This document shows positions 6,338-22,927 of a DNA stretch of 24,786 nucleotides, piece after piece; position 1 is the first letter of the stretch, and each line of letters begins with the position of its first letter. The stretch comes from a virus. Position numbers and translations under genes: made by a program. The stretch is from IMG/VR virus record IMGVR_UViG_3300009149_000259, positions 1-24,786 of that record. One strand, given 5' to 3'. Under the pieces are notes generated by a model. It did not search any database, had not been told where the DNA came from, and saw nothing but the letters and a program-made list of their open reading frames with translations.

Positions 6338-8618
6338 GTTGTGGCACTCCGCCTATACCCGTGAAAGATACTTCCTTGACCATCCGCTGCGGTATCACTC
6401 GCGCAGGCCGCAGGTAGGAAACAAAGTAACCGAAGGCATCAACCGCATGGCCTAGCTTCTTATCCGTCTGCTCAAAGTCGCCATACTGGTTCCGCTTCAT
6501 ACGCTGCAAATCATTTATCAACCGCTTACACCGCCCGTGTATTTTTACTCTAACATTTCCCTGCATATCAAGCAAGGCTACATTTACGGCATTGACCCGA
6601 TCAACTACCGGGGGGTTGCCCGCCGGCACCCGGATACGGTGATTGACGTTGGCGCCCCGCAGAGACTGACGAACGATGGCATAACAACTCTCGCCGGTCC
6701 CCGCCCAGTGGCTTCCGCCGGTTGCATCGCCGAATACGTGCAACTCCGGCCCGTACTTAGCCAGTCCACCAAGGTCGGTATTTATCAGCCGGACAGACAT
6801 ATCAATCAACCCCCGCACATCCAGGCGGTCTGCATATAGCTCATAGACAATCAGAAACATATCTTGGTTGGGTATGTACTGCCCGATCAATCCGTGCATT
6901 CCCGGCGCTATGTTGAAGTCCAGCATCAGACAAAGAGGCAGGCCGTCCTTAAGTGTAATGCTATCGTCTATGTGCAGGTCATCGTCAAACTGAGGATAGA
7001 CCAGAGCGCCTCGCAAATTCGCAGCCTGGCCCTCAAGGTACTGGGCAGCTAGGTCCGGCGTTAGCAGCTTCGATTGCATCTCATAAAAATCAGCCATGCA
7101 AGGATTCTCTCTAGTCGATCCCCGATACCAGGCGTGAGTTGGATAGCCGCCGTGCATCTCCTCGTATATCCGCGTATGGTCTCCCTCGTTTGTATATGTA
7201 AACATGCACTGGATAAAGTTAGCTTGGGGGTGTCGTACTCGACCGGTAAGCTGAATATAAGCATCGTTGCGGGGATCGAACCGATCTTCTTTCCAGCGTG
7301 CCGGCTCATCGCCCCAGGCCGCACCCGCCTGCCAGCCGGCAATCCGCTCCGGCATATCAGCCGAACGCACCATAATCACACTGGGATTATCACCTGTACC
7401 CAAACGTGGGAAGATAAACGCCGGTCCCTCGATCCGGCCTTTACGACTACTGATCCACTCTATCGGTTCATCCACCTCCTCACAAGCCCGAAACATCTCC
7501 GGTACGCAATAGTCCATAGCACCTCGATAGCTAGGCGCGATGATAACACTAGGCACCCCCGTCGGCTGACCGTGTGCGTCAAACGCATTATGGACGTGCA
7601 GCGTTTCCAGCTTGCGGGCACCGATAAAAGTCTTGCCCGAATTATGATGAATCATACCCTTTGCCACATAACTATCAGCTTCAGGTACGCGAATATCAAA
7701 AACCCAATCTTTTTTTAATTTTCTTATTGACCGTATCCGCATCCCTACTGTATAATAATTGCATGGAGACAAAGAAAAAACAATATGTAAAGATCGATAC
7801 AGACCAAGTTCGCAAGCTCCGTGCGGAAGGCTTAAGTTGCAAAGAGATGTCTCATGTTCTCGGTGCTCGCGAAGAATCGATCCGCAAGCACATGTCGAAA
7901 CAGGGTATTCCTCGCCTAGCAAAGAAAGCCCGTCCTCATAAGAATCATTTTTGGAAGGGTGGTCGCACAATAGACAAGAGTAACTATGTTTTACTTTTGA
8001 AGCCTGGTCATCCAATGGCCGATAAACATGGTTACGTCCGTGAGCACCGATTGATAATGAGTCAGATGTTGGGAAGAAATCTTTCGCCAGACGAGGTTGT
8101 ACATCATCGTGATAATAATCATCAAAATAATCAATCAGACAATTTAATTCTCTATCCAAATAATCATACTCACCTAGCCCGGACGTTGAAGGGCAAATGT
8201 CCAAATTGGACCCCGGAAGGCCGGGAGCGTATATTAAAAGCTGTCTCTGCTCCAAAGCGCCGCAGGGCTGCCAACCACAAGAAGTCAAAAACAAATGATT
8301 CTTAGCGACATCAACAAATACACCATTATCTAGTTCTACCCTATAAATATCCGTCTTATACTTTGCAAACACATTGGTCGCAGCAAAAGGCTCCAATCTA
8401 AAACCATTCCATCCTAAAACAACATTAGCCTTCGACCTTAGAGATTCAGCCGCATAAGATTCTTTGGTAATTGGATTATAAATCGGAGTATCGGCGGTAA
8501 TACATCCCCACCCGCCCTCATAGCCTATAAAGTTGTGAGTCCAGTCGGCGGCGAACTCCGCCTGAGCACCCGGATTCGGTCGGACCACACCACTACTATC
8601 GAGCGTCAACTGAGCCAC
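6330..8618 (-). CDS. Terminase large subunit interrupted by an intein
   Basis: The 762-codon frame encodes a packaging ATPase/nuclease plus an intein (residues 39-326). Joining residue 38 to 327 gives a 474-residue terminase whose Walker A reads GGWG/SGKT. The ATPase half continues with VIIAPSYRG and a Walker B-like AAWGDEPARW. The nuclease half shows LCLMLDFNIAPG, HVFGDATGG and the terminal DAFGYFVSYLRP, in the usual order. The protein should cut concatemeric DNA and pump it through the portal. GTG 8618 has GGGAG five bases upstream. It follows the small subunit gene and overlaps the portal gene. An HNH endonuclease gene lies on the opposite strand inside the intein. Without splicing the ATP-binding loop would be broken, so splicing is presumably essential. 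Confidence 0.9.
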   Translation of the reverse strand: MAQLTLDSSGVVRPNPGAQAEFAADWTHNFIGYEGGWGCITADTPIYNPITKESYAAESLRSKANVVLGWNGFRLEPFAATNVFAKYKTDIYRVELDNGVFVDVAKNHLFLTSCGWQPCGALEQRQLLIYAPGLPGSNLDICPSTSGLGEYDYLDRELNCLIDYFDDYYHDDVQPRLAKDFFPTSDSLSIGAHGRNHVYRPLDDQASKVKHSYSCLLCDHPSKNDSYEDGLSLLGEEYPVSTCACGSILREHREHETSLCNLSLPHGACELGLYRSLHIVFSLSPCNYYTVGMRIRSIRKLKKDWVFDIRVPEADSYVAKGMIHHNSGKTFIGARKLETLHVHNAFDAHGQPTGVPSVIIAPSYRGAMDYCVPEMFRACEEVDEPIEWISSRKGRIEGPAFIFPRLGTGDNPSVIMVRSADMPERIAGWQAGAAWGDEPARWKEDRFDPRNDAYIQLTGRVRHPQANFIQCMFTYTNEGDHTRIYEEMHGGYPTHAWYRGSTRENPCMADFYEMQSKLLTPDLAAQYLEGQAANLRGALVYPQFDDDLHIDDSITLKDGLPLCLMLDFNIAPGMHGLIGQYIPNQDMFLIVYELYADRLDVRGLIDMSVRLINTDLGGLAKYGPELHVFGDATGGSHWAGTGESCYAIVRQSLRGANVNHRIRVPAGNPPVVDRVNAVNVALLDMQGNVRVKIHGRCKRLINDLQRMKRNQYGDFEQTDKKLGHAVDAFGYFVSYLRPARVIPQRMVKEVSFTGIGGVPQHV
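7727..7756 (+). promoter_or_regulatory. Sigma70-like promoter for the antisense HNH gene
   Basis: TTGACC (7727-7732) and TATAAT (7751-7756) are separated by 18 bases on the plus strand, opposite to all surrounding genes. The expected transcription start, about seven bases after the -10 box, falls at or next to ATG 7763, so the mRNA would be leaderless or nearly so. No Shine-Dalgarno precedes that ATG, which fits leaderless translation. The promoter lies within minus-strand coding sequence for the C-terminal Hint half. Confidence 0.65.
7763..8305 (+). CDS. HNH homing endonuclease encoded antisense inside the terminase intein
   Basis: This 180-residue protein is the only convincing plus-strand gene. 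Residues 9-50 resemble a helix-turn-helix (TDQVRKLRAEGLSCKEMSHVLGAREESIRKHM). Residues 90-140 form an HNH nuclease: YVREHRLIM, then VVHHRDNNHQNNQSDNLILY with H114-H115, N118/N127 and H135/H137 as the likely metal and catalytic positions. The tail is basic. Such HNH proteins are free-standing homing endonucleases of phages. It fills the space between the Hint halves of the intein, and its last codons overlap Hint block B. ATG 7763 is preferred over an upstream TTG 7661 because the protein pattern starts there and a promoter ends just before. The base composition is more A+T-rich than the flanks, suggesting acquisition. Confidence 0.88.
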   Translation: METKKKQYVKIDTDQVRKLRAEGLSCKEMSHVLGAREESIRKHMSKQGIPRLAKKARPHKNHFWKGGRTIDKSNYVLLLKPGHPMADKHGYVREHRLIMSQMLGRNLSPDEVVHHRDNNHQNNQSDNLILYPNNHTHLARTLKGKCPNWTPEGRERILKAVSAPKRRRAANHKKSKTNDS

Positions 8619-17968: not shown

Positions 17969-18039
17969 TTGCGGGGCCTGGAGTCGAACCAGGAACTAGG
18001 GCTTATGAAACCCTCGACTTACCATTTGTCCACCCCGCT
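17969..18039 (-). tRNA. tRNA with anticodon CAU, initiator-like (tRNA-fMet-like)
   Basis: A 71-base cloverleaf on the minus strand (5' A at 18039). Acceptor 2-7/66-71 is GCGGGG/CCCCGC, with position 1 and 72 both A, hence unpaired. The D stem is GAC/GUC. The anticodon stem AGGGU/GCCCU encloses UUCAUAA with CAU at 34-36. The T stem CCUGG/CCAGG encloses UUCGACU. U8 and discriminator A73 are normal, and CCA is not encoded. An unpaired 1:72 and A11-U24 are hallmarks of bacterial initiator tRNA, and the acceptor stem nearly copies the Escherichia coli one. Only two of the three conserved G-C pairs at 29-31/39-41 are present (31-39 is U-G). Confidence 0.88.
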
Positions 18040-19814: not shown

Positions 19815-20202
19815 CTTGTAAGAGTCCTTTCAATTCATCTGCCTTATTTTCTTCAAGCCATTTATAAAATTCTTCTATGCCAGGTCTTGAAAAACCGGTG
19901 CCAAGATATGTGAATTTGCCAGTGGCAAAAAAGTAGTCTTGAACTAGAGGAATAATCTCTTTCCTTAAATTCAGATATGGGTATTTATTTTCTTTTTTCT
20001 GTTGATCTGATCCACCTTTTAGTTGATAGGGTGTTCCGCACTGTGTGCACATTCCTTCCCCGTGATAATCACTCCACTGAAAAGTCATGGGGACTGCGCT
20101 ACAGACAACACATTTTTTGTTTTGAGCAGAAGACTCATTATTGGCCATTAGATCATAATCATGTAGAACGCCTTGTTTTGGTTTTGACATTTCAAACTCC
20201 AT
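19804..20202 (-). CDS. Zinc-finger-containing hypothetical protein
   Basis: A 132-residue protein with a four-Cys zinc ribbon at about residues 31-56: KKCVVCSAVP, then GEGMCTQCGTPY (two C-x2-C pairs). The remainder has aromatic residues and a short C-terminal acidic helix (EENKADELKGLLQDEH). ATG 20202 overlaps the helicase gene end and has GGAG seven bases upstream. Another ATG four codons in is also well placed. Family unknown. Confidence 0.6.
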   Translation of the reverse strand: MEFEMSKPKQGVLHDYDLMANNESSAQNKKCVVCSAVPMTFQWSDYHGEGMCTQCGTPYQLKGGSDQQKKENKYPYLNLRKEIIPLVQDYFFATGKFTYLGTGFSRPGIEEFYKWLEENKADELKGLLQDEH

Positions 20203-22927
20203 GTTTTATCTCCGCCAGTATTGATTCGATTACGGTTTTTCTTTGCTTCAAAGCCTTATAGACTTTCTCATCCACGGTTTTACGAGCCACCAAATGCAAG
20301 TAAGTTACCGATCTCTTTTGGCCGGGTCGATGCAGCCTGGCCATGCTCTGCTCATAATCACCGAGGCTGAATCCCAGTGAGTAGTAACAGGCGTAGGCTG
20401 ATCGAGTCAGGTCGATTCCCAGTCCGCCGGCCTGAATCTGCACGGCCAAGACCTCGCCGCCAGTAGCCGCCTTCCACTCGGCTAGTTCGTTGATTGAGCC
20501 GGATAGCTCAAAGCATTTGCGTTCGGCTTTTTCGGATATTTGTTGGACAGTTTCGAGGTCTCGTCTGAATCGGCAAAATACAACCAGCGGGTCGGACTGC
20601 TCCAAATCGTCTAGTATATCAGCCAGGGCCTCGGCTTTGCCGGTGTCGATAGGCATTTCCGTACCGGTTTCGAGCTTGGCAAAGCCGCTAGTTATTTGCT
20701 GCAATCGTATTAATCTGGCCAGGGCGTTGGCCGCCGTTATAATGCCCTCGCCTACATCGGCTATAAATTGTTTCTCTAGCTCATCATAGGCTTTGCGAGC
20801 TGTATCACCGAGGTCTATAATTCTCGGTTCATGGATCACCGGCGGCAGGTCGAGCACATCCTCTTTTTTGACTCGATGGGCTATCGAATAAAATAACTCG
20901 TTGAACTCCTGCTCGTTCTGATAACCGATAACCTGGTGGTTCTCGAAGCCACCGAGGACGGCAAAGTGTGCGCGAAATCTTACAAAACTTGTACCGAAGA
21001 TTCCTGGGTCGAGAAATCTGTATTGGGCGTAGGCGTCGAGGGGCGAATGCGGTAATGGCGTGCCACTAAGTCCCACCTTGCGAACGGCTTTTAGTTTGGC
21101 CATGAATTTGCTACAGCGGCCTGCCGGGGCTTTTATTTTGTGGCAATTATGGACGAGCAATCCATTAGCAAAATAATTTCCTGTAGTAGTTTCGAGATTC
21201 ATTACTTCTTGATTTGTTTCATAATCTGTGTTGGATTTTCCAAAATATCCCAGTTCCAAAAGTGAAAAACTTTCCATCCTAGGTTTTCTAACATCTGATT
21301 TTTTCTCATATCTGTAGCTTGAACCTTTTTCGTTTTGTGTGTATGGCCGTCCACTTCTATTGCTATTTTTAGTGTTGGATTTGCTATGTCTATTTTCAGA
21401 TGGTTTACACAATGCTCCATCAACCATCCTTTGCCTAATAAATGATATAATGCCAACTGGGGTTTCGTTGGACCTGCGCCATTGCCACCGTTTAGATGTT
21501 TCCAACCTTGGGCTGCCAACTTCGCTAAACCCTTTTCTCTGGTTTTGGGATCTCGAAAAGGATTCCTGTCTGAATGTAAATACTGCTGAAGTTTCTTCAT
21601 CGCTTTTTTGTTTTTGCGCAGTTTTAGCATGTTTGCTTTGCTCTTGCTGCGCATATGTTCGGTGTATACTTTTGCTTTGTGTTCTGGTTGAGACATTCGC
21701 CATTTGGCAGAACAGGAAGTACCACAAAATCTCCGTGGTTTGCCTCTCGCCATTTTCTTGTCCGCCAAAAATTCTCCTCCGCATATTTGGCAAATAAGAT
21801 GATAGGGTGTTTTGCGAGGTCCATGTGGTGGCGGATGTGCTTGGGTACGGCATTGGTTTGAACAATACATTTGTGTTTTTCTTATCGTAGTGTAGGTCTT
21901 TTTGCAATTTTGACAGACAAGTTTGTACATTTCTTTTTTCTCCTGGTTGAGCCATAGGATATTTTATATCAATGCAGTACACTGAATCAAGATATTTTTT
22001 TAATAAATTTGCTGCAATATAGCCCCGATCTGTGAATACGGGATGTTCGGGGGTAAGATATGTATTCCCTACTTGTACAAAATTACACGATGATGTTTTC
22101 CTAAATATATGTTTTATAATGGTTTCTGTAATTTTGCCTGTTTTATGGTCAAATCCATAAACCAGATCGCCTAGTTGAATATCTTCGATCTTTTTGTCTC
22201 CTAGCGGGGTAGATATTTTTGTACCTAATGGGACACACTCGTCGGCCACAATCATATCCCATTTAATCTCGGTGGCGAATTGACCGAATAGATTACGCCA
22301 TACAGCATCGTAGTTTATTACCAGGACTATCTTTTCATGCCGGGCATTGGCCAGTTGTAACTGTTGTCTAGCTAGTTTAGTTCGTGCCGCAATGGTTCCC
22401 TCGCGCAAGGCAATGACGTTTACAAAATAGCGGGCGTGTTTCTCGAACTCCGCCGGCCAGGTATCAATGACGCTTTTTGGGCAGACGATAAGCACCTGTG
22501 TACAATCAGTTATATTACACACCGCGTCCACTACACACTTTGTTTTGCCTGTCCCCATGCTGAACGCGAGCATTGACGCGGGCAACAATTTAATCAGGTG
22601 ATAGCCCTGAGTCTGATGGTACCAGGGTTTGGTTTCTGACTTGGCGGGTTCCAGATATTTTTTGAGTTTTATTTCTTCGGCAGTAACTCGCAGTGATATA
22701 AGCTTGGAGATTTCTGGATCAATCTCCGGCAATCGCCCATATTTTTCAGGTGGGTACAAATCATAGATAAAGTTCTTTGCGATATATGCGCCGGCGGCAG
22801 TGGCCGGCAGATACCAGACTTTCGACCTGGGGTCCCACCTGACCCCCCGCAAAGCCTTGACTCGGTCTTTAAGTTCGTAGGGTGTATTAAGTTCAATCCT
22901 GTTATTTTTGAGTGTTGCTGTCGCCAC
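20192..22927 (-). CDS. SNF2/HARP-like superfamily 2 helicase interrupted by an intein
   Basis: The 911-codon frame holds a DNA-dependent ATPase with an intein (residues 231-594). Without it the protein has 547 residues. The N-terminus (LRGVRWDPRSKVWYLPATAAGAYIA) resembles the HARP-like domain of SMARCAL1-type annealing helicases. Motif I is SMGTGKTK (about 123-130). Motif II reads DE/CHK across the intein junction. Motif III-like GLSGTP and motif VI YEQSMARLHRPGQKRSV follow. The product probably remodels forks or annealed DNA in phage replication. GTG 22927 has GGAG six bases upstream, and a near-perfect sigma70 promoter precedes it. A second endonuclease gene is nested in the intein in another frame. 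Confidence 0.9.
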   Translation of the reverse strand: MATATLKNNRIELNTPYELKDRVKALRGVRWDPRSKVWYLPATAAGAYIAKNFIYDLYPPEKYGRLPEIDPEISKLISLRVTAEEIKLKKYLEPAKSETKPWYHQTQGYHLIKLLPASMLAFSMGTGKTKCVVDAVCNITDCTQVLIVCPKSVIDTWPAEFEKHARYFVNVIALREGTIAARTKLARQQLQLANARHEKIVLVINYDAVWRNLFGQFATEIKWDMIVADECVPLGTKISTPLGDKKIEDIQLGDLVYGFDHKTGKITETIIKHIFRKTSSCNFVQVGNTYLTPEHPVFTDRGYIAANLLKKYLDSVYCIDIKYPMAQPGEKRNVQTCLSKLQKDLHYDKKNTNVLFKPMPYPSTSATTWTSQNTLSSYLPNMRRRIFGGQENGERQTTEILWYFLFCQMANVSTRTQSKSIHRTYAQQEQSKHAKTAQKQKSDEETSAVFTFRQESFSRSQNQRKGFSEVGSPRLETSKRWQWRRSNETPVGIISFIRQRMVDGALCKPSENRHSKSNTKNSNRSGRPYTQNEKGSSYRYEKKSDVRKPRMESFSLLELGYFGKSNTDYETNQEVMNLETTTGNYFANGLLVHNCHKIKAPAGRCSKFMAKLKAVRKVGLSGTPLPHSPLDAYAQYRFLDPGIFGTSFVRFRAHFAVLGGFENHQVIGYQNEQEFNELFYSIAHRVKKEDVLDLPPVIHEPRIIDLGDTARKAYDELEKQFIADVGEGIITAANALARLIRLQQITSGFAKLETGTEMPIDTGKAEALADILDDLEQSDPLVVFCRFRRDLETVQQISEKAERKCFELSGSINELAEWKAATGGEVLAVQIQAGGLGIDLTRSAYACYYSLGFSLGDYEQSMARLHRPGQKRSVTYLHLVARKTVDEKVYKALKQRKTVIESILAEIKHGV
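21146..22237 (-). other. Intein in helicase motif II (364 residues)
   Basis: The intein begins with Cys (codon 22237-22235) in CVPLGTKISTPLGDKKI (block A). Block B is GNTYLTPEHPVFT with a standard T-x-x-H. Block F is VMNLETTTGNYFANGLL, and it ends VHN (Asn codon 21148-21146), followed by Cys as C-extein nucleophile. It therefore has all residues for standard splicing. Splicing restores DECHK. Between the Hint halves the reading frame runs about 240 codons through low-complexity, Ser/Asn/Lys/Arg-rich sequence that is the out-of-frame reading of a zinc-finger endonuclease gene. Confidence 0.92.
21202..21930 (-). CDS. Zinc-finger and Vsr/DUF559-like homing endonuclease nested in the helicase intein
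   Basis: A 242-residue protein in the +1 frame relative to the helicase. It has two Cys4 zinc knuckles (C6, C9, C23, C27 and C47, C50, C69, C73), a linker with a NUMOD-like segment (SDRNPFRDPKTREKGLAKLAAQG), and a C-terminal Vsr/DUF559-type nuclease: KIDIANPTLKIAIEVDGHTH with D181, E192, D194 and H196/H198 as likely catalytic residues, followed by LGWKVFHFWNWDI. Such patch-repair-like domains are known in homing endonucleases linked to inteins and introns (EDxHD type). ATG 21930 has AGGAG nine bases upstream, so it can be translated by itself. It is bracketed by the Hint halves and is more A+T-rich than the helicase. Confidence 0.88.
   Translation of the reverse strand: MYKLVCQNCKKTYTTIRKTQMYCSNQCRTQAHPPPHGPRKTPYHLICQICGGEFLADKKMARGKPRRFCGTSCSAKWRMSQPEHKAKVYTEHMRSKSKANMLKLRKNKKAMKKLQQYLHSDRNPFRDPKTREKGLAKLAAQGWKHLNGGNGAGPTKPQLALYHLLGKGWLMEHCVNHLKIDIANPTLKIAIEVDGHTHKTKKVQATDMRKNQMLENLGWKVFHFWNWDILENPTQIMKQIKK

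Follow-up and report, generated by a model that had tools for sequence, protein, structure and literature searches.

Can one stretch of viral DNA encode both the splicing frame of an intein and, in a second reading frame, the homing endonuclease that would spread it? This question is raised by a helicase gene in the IMG/VR virus record IMGVR_UViG_3300009149_000259, which we analyzed over its whole length of 24,786 nucleotides (nt; hereafter the window). The usual picture of an intein is a splicing domain into which the homing endonuclease is built as a further domain. A preliminary description of the window had proposed a contiguous intein, a nuclease gene overlapping it on the same strand, and selection to keep the splicing frame open. 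Our data point the same way: this is very probably a contiguous, cis-splicing intein whose homing endonuclease is not an intein domain but a separate protein encoded by the same DNA in the +1 frame, with both frames under selection.

Two reading frames in one helicase insertion

The helicase, a phage protein of the SNF2 family, is encoded by a single uninterrupted open reading frame (ORF) of 911 codons (22927..20192; this and all other helicase, intein and nuclease features of this locus lie on the minus strand). Its N-extein (22238..22927; Pfam SNF2-rel_dom, 1.6e-19) ends with WDMIVADE in motif II, the Walker B/DExH box, and its C-extein (20192..21145, stop included; Pfam Helicase_C, 6.5e-07) begins with CHKIK. 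Between the two lies a complete insertion of 364 residues in the helicase frame (21146..22237), and the range that the preliminary description gave for the intein runs exactly from its Cys1 to its final Asn. The junctions read WDMIVADE|CVPLGTKI...TGNYFANGLLVHN|CHKIK, and the residues of a class-1 intein are present: C1, TPEH (the TxxH of block B), and LVHN followed by Cys+1. Across 44 splicing-frame sequences of the family described below, C1, H65, and N364 are invariant, and H363 is conserved in at least 90%.

In an AlphaFold model of the intein, residues 1-80 and 341-364 are predicted with confidence and form a Hint domain, and the stretch between them is largely disordered. The N-terminal splicing half (residues 1-85; 21983..22237) has a mean predicted local distance difference test score (pLDDT) of mostly 87-98 in ten-residue blocks, falling to 69 in the last block; the C-terminal half (residues 341-364, ending NYFANGLLVHN; 21146..21217) scores 89-97 and matches the intein C-terminal region TIGR01443. 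A Foldseek search with this model retrieved inteins including gp41-1 and Mtu RecA. A profile of the 44 family members in the helicase frame likewise matched inteins of known structure, among them the split inteins gp41-1 (6.7e-17) and NrdJ-1. These data suggest that the insertion is a contiguous class-1-type intein in the Walker-B/DExH motif of the helicase, predicted to splice.

Residues 86-340 (21218..21982) are stop-free in the splicing frame and read as a linker with pLDDT mostly below 55. The preliminary description had called this reading both unfolded and low in complexity; the first holds, and for the second "disordered" is the better term. The same DNA is dual-coding: as that description had also recognized, the +1 frame holds a 242-residue zinc-finger/Vsr-like nuclease ORF (21202..21930, stop included), with a Shine-Dalgarno sequence, AGGAG (21940..21944), 9 nt upstream of its ATG at 21930. 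The nuclease frame is already open 11 codons upstream of this ATG.

The nuclease matches the DUF559/MTES_1575 (Vsr-like) domain (1.6e-11) and carries two CxxC zinc fingers. The first (C6, C9, C23, C27; 21850..21915) was identified from sequence and alignment; the second (C47, C50, C69, C73; 21712..21792) is invariant in an eight-sequence alignment, with C69 and C73 conserved in at least 90% of 52 sequences. In the catalytic domain (21205..21468), D181, E192, D194, G195, H198, D207, W219, and N226 are invariant in all 52 sequences, and D181, E192, D194, H198, and D207 among them are the EDxHD/Vsr-like active-site residues. The model of the nuclease has a mean pLDDT of 90.7 and a low predicted template modeling score (0.48), so it does not fix the arrangement of the domains. 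When structures were ranked against the catalytic domain, the homing endonuclease I-Bth0305I (3r3p) came first, followed by 3hrl, with Vsr lower. The protein is thus a predicted EDxHD/Vsr-like homing endonuclease that may cut DNA.

Across the nuclease ORF the helicase frame contains no stop codon. Permuting the synonymous codons while holding the nuclease protein constant predicts an average of 12.3 stops, and 20,000 permutations produced no open frame (P<5e-5). A null based on extein codon usage predicts 11.5, again with not one open frame in 10,000 samples. The preliminary description had put the chance of this open frame near 1 in 100,000 under equal base use, and these more suitable nulls agree. 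The remaining same-strand frame over the region contains 18 stops.

An open splicing frame across the family

Relatives were found by tblastn of the nuclease against phage genomes, followed by profile searches of IMG/VR and GTDB genomes; single-sequence searches of viral contigs with the window's nuclease and helicase found nothing, and an alignment was required. Loci were chosen by similarity to the nuclease and not by openness of the host frame, the best 80 per scan were kept, and the final set comprises the non-redundant best relatives plus the window. The tblastn search placed nuclease relatives inside helicase genes of Vibrio, Pseudomonas, and Corynebacterium phages. Each such phage locus that we examined has the nuclease in the +1 frame of an unbroken helicase coding sequence, with Hint motifs at the same DE|C position, and none of the annotated phage records examined lists a nuclease at the overlap.

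In 113 of the 116 non-redundant loci the host frame is open through the nuclease, with no stops against 1,054 expected. The nuclease is never in the intein's own frame in these 113 loci, the window included, and always occupies +1; neither a +2 nor an in-frame arrangement was found among the 80 loci of the last scan. The open loci belong to Vibrio, Pseudomonas, Corynebacterium, and uncultured phages, and to bacterial contigs or prophages of several phyla, bearing out on a broad sample the architecture first proposed for the window and extending it from one locus to a widespread family. Restated at the codon level, codons preceding AA, AG, or GA end in T in 0 of 2,018 cases, versus 1,742 of 5,642; this is the same fact as the missing stops and not independent of it.

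The insertion site across the family is mainly the DE|C of the Walker-B/DExH motif. By our judgement of the sequences, the same intein family also occupies apparent DnaX genes on contigs labelled Bacteroides, Clostridia, and Lachnospiraceae (L047, L054, and L068). At two loci, L031 and L038, the nuclease ORF extends 37 and 10 nt beyond the end of the intein into the C-extein, overlapping host coding sequence.

The three exceptions among the 116 are a free-standing nuclease (L143), a degenerate locus (L160), and one with a single TGA (L178, discussed below); those of the first scans were L023, where the gene is free-standing, and L049, a degenerate remnant. The free-standing L023 nuclease, directly upstream of a helicase gene, has 31 stops against 29 expected in the corresponding frame, and free-standing bacterial DUF559 genes, used as a control, have 140 against 165. 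In the neighboring helicase (L023:3950-5000) the frame breaks exactly at motif II (IIIDE RTPRSSSDL*), possibly as a scar of intein loss or through a sequence error.

These data bear on whether the frame is open by chance or neutrally, with one of the two frames unused. Few stops are expected in GC-rich members (in MR14, for example, 4.7, P=0.002), which would favor such a reading. It is already contradicted by the family-wide absence of stops, by free-standing relatives that carry them at the expected rate, and by conserved folded domains in both frames, and we regard it as vanishingly improbable.

The preliminary description had called for codon-level analysis in homologs, and we ran it on relatives only, because no close relative of the window's nuclease was found. 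In close Vibrio phages, most changes hit third positions of nuclease codons, preserving the nuclease protein; the linker sequence varies but never gains a stop. Linker hydropathy departs only weakly from that of stop-free synonymous permutations (mean z of -0.39). The splicing frame therefore appears to be kept open rather than kept to a particular sequence. Four-fold divergence in these phages is lower in the nuclease (0.14-0.15) than in the C-extein (0.24-0.54), as would follow from double constraint or from recent lateral transfer of the intein. Transfer seems the more likely, because third-position divergence is equally low in the upstream stretch.

Probable expression and mobility of the element

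How might the nuclease be made? A Shine-Dalgarno match of at least 5 nt precedes the nuclease ATG in 29 of 78 loci, compared with 3.1% of background ATGs (p=8e-24). For this comparison the nuclease start was defined as the earliest ATG lying no more than 15 codons from zinc finger 1, and background ATGs came from the remaining frames of these regions. This enrichment makes internal initiation the route with the most support, and the nuclease is probably translated separately. A programmed +1 frameshift from the helicase frame, which would yield a fusion of N-extein, N-intein, and nuclease, fits the constant +1 position of the nuclease and the open codons ahead of its ATG in the window. The placement of a Shine-Dalgarno sequence and ATG right before the zinc finger, enriched family-wide, argues against it, and from sequence reasoning the run of six A residues ahead of the ATG would favor slippage to -1, not +1. 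We consider such a frameshift very unlikely.

Filled and empty alleles of the insertion site point to mobility. The Corynebacterium phages phi673 and phi674 are near-identical, at 99% over the aligned helicase, and a precise intein of 906 nt separates them: their lengths are equal once the intein is removed, and the codon that follows the site reads GTG without the intein and TGT with it. CP-T1 and VchM-138 form a similarly precise filled/empty pair differing by 1,059 nt, again with a changed +1 codon. At the helicase site, empty alleles have DEAH, DEVH, or DESH and filled ones DE|CH, so the +1 Cys travels with the element; the helicase homolog THSA-485A (~36% identity) contains no DEC motif. 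The Vibrio phages K389, K459, PS65A.1, and 13VV501A carry shorter inteins of about 145-149 residues at the same site that lack the homing endonuclease, and the linker is therefore dispensable. Across the family, Hint and nuclease identities are correlated (r=0.66, 0 of 2,000 permutations), indicating that the overlapping unit diversified together, which fits one old origin of the +1 overlap. Together, these patterns suggest that the element may home; the presence/absence polymorphism and the co-converted +1 codon also lend indirect support to cleavage of the intein-less allele.

The empty sites also bear on whether a self-splicing RNA intron, instead of an intein, contains the nuclease gene. 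EDxHD/Vsr nucleases are known from phage introns too (PMC12350094). We rejected this candidate as extremely unlikely: an Rfam scan of the window gave no intron match, complete Hint halves flank the nuclease in the host frame, and the empty site coincides with the Hint ends. The sole Rfam match in the window is a tRNA gene (17969-18039, minus strand).

We propose that translation of the helicase frame would give a precursor with some 255 disordered residues, the nuclease gene read out of frame, between the two Hint halves (residues 1-85 and 341-364). From this precursor the Hint domain would excise itself to leave a helicase with a DE-CH junction. Ribosomes initiating at the internal AGGAG and ATG would make a free zinc-finger and EDxHD nuclease, which may cut intein-less helicase alleles, with repair copying in the element plus the +1 Cys codon. 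The nuclease would be under amino-acid selection, and the linker under little beyond avoidance of stops.

Several observations weigh against this model. Even a 4-nt threshold finds a Shine-Dalgarno sequence (at least 4 nt) at 37 of 78 nuclease starts, leaving about half without one. The nearest relative of the window's nuclease, at L012, is 45% identical to it, and no close relative was found. We searched the intein frame of the relatives for stops and frameshifts, which the preliminary description had said would refute it, and 1 of 116 carries one: a lone TGA near the nuclease start in the otherwise intact intein of L178 (L178:3545), possibly a fresh split intein or a sequencing error. Finally, the nuclease stop in the window shares bases with an ATG that is in the splicing frame (TAATG, 21200..21204) just before the C-intein, which would permit a split product.

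The last two observations lead to a further alternative, a split intein in a fractured gene. The N-terminal half would be made apart, the nuclease ORF would follow, the C-intein and C-extein would re-initiate at the TAATG (21204..21200), immediately ahead of NLETTTGNYFANGLLVHN, and the halves would splice in trans like gp41-1 and NrdJ-1. The similarity of the Hint domain to these two split inteins, among the closest matches, and the TGA in the L178 linker also favor it. Against it, the helicase is one 911-codon ORF and not separate ORFs, and the N-terminal frame is stop-free in 113 loci, the window included, against ~1,054 stops expected, so no N-terminal half could end. The TAATG is not a common feature of the other phage loci examined. 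We judge this arrangement highly improbable for the window, and retain the contiguous intein with a separately translated nuclease.

The same contig carries a second intein with a nuclease in an overlapping frame. In the terminase large subunit, a 288-residue intein (8504..7641, minus strand) interrupts Walker A (GGWG|C...HN|SGKT), and a 180-residue HNH ORF overlaps it on the opposite strand (7763..8305, plus strand). The terminase frame over this ORF has no stops against 7.5 expected (P<5e-5). A search for relatives of the terminase intein found none beyond a weak Hint match.

Relation to known inteins and homing elements

Fractured genes, in which split inteins are said to have EDxHD/Vsr homing endonucleases between their halves, were reportedly described in Dassa et al. 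2009 (cited in PMC12350094). They share with the window the nuclease superfamily, a separate nuclease ORF between the intein halves, and a related Hint domain (gp41-1, NrdJ-1). They differ in that the host gene lies in separate ORFs, whereas in the window one continuous ORF overlaps the nuclease gene. Inteins with out-of-frame nucleases may constitute a large, distinct class, and one from which split inteins arise: one linker stop plus re-initiation after the nuclease would yield a fractured gene, a split intein, and a free nuclease; the L178 TGA and the window's TAATG could be steps on that path. We hold this view tentatively and think it somewhat less likely than its opposite. The family offers a testable path toward natural split inteins.

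The nearest published case that we found is the ShiLan domain, in which a methylase insertion contains an HNH in another frame; the study's authors detected neither a splicing domain nor a ribosome-binding site, and the insert is thought to remain in the protein (PMC11855218). Like the window, it places a homing-type endonuclease in another frame of an insertion that is stop-free in the host frame. Unlike it, the window has an EDxHD nuclease, a Shine-Dalgarno sequence, and a Hint domain, the absence of which marks the ShiLan type. I-Bth0305I, the best structural match of the catalytic domain, is described in the PDB (3r3p) as a mobile intron protein, and does not share the N-terminal zinc fingers or the overlapping coding. 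No publication that we found describes an intein family whose nuclease is encoded in an overlapping frame; this is provisional, as a preprint on actinobacteriophage inteins with 'Non-Canonical Architecture' and Gorbalenya 1998, cited in PMC11855218 (the latter for overlapping frames), may bear on it.

The family has practical uses. Host ORFs of this kind seem to hold a meaningless linker, and the nuclease is overlooked, so such inteins call for a different annotation. For the study of overlapping genes, it offers a long, strictly frame-constrained overlap with more than 100 natural replicates and free-standing controls. Homing is directly testable in phi673 and phi674, near-identical phages of a laboratory bacterium with and without the element.

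Set beside canonical inteins of the PI-SceI type, the window shares the Hint domain, Cys1, the HN|Cys+1 junction, a nuclease encoded mid-intein, and precise empty sites. In those inteins the nuclease is an in-frame domain. Here it occupies a different frame, equipped with a ribosome-binding site and start codon of its own, and in the host frame the sequence reads as a disordered linker: a separate gene overprinted on the intein, in a family that extends to phages and bacterial contigs from many groups.
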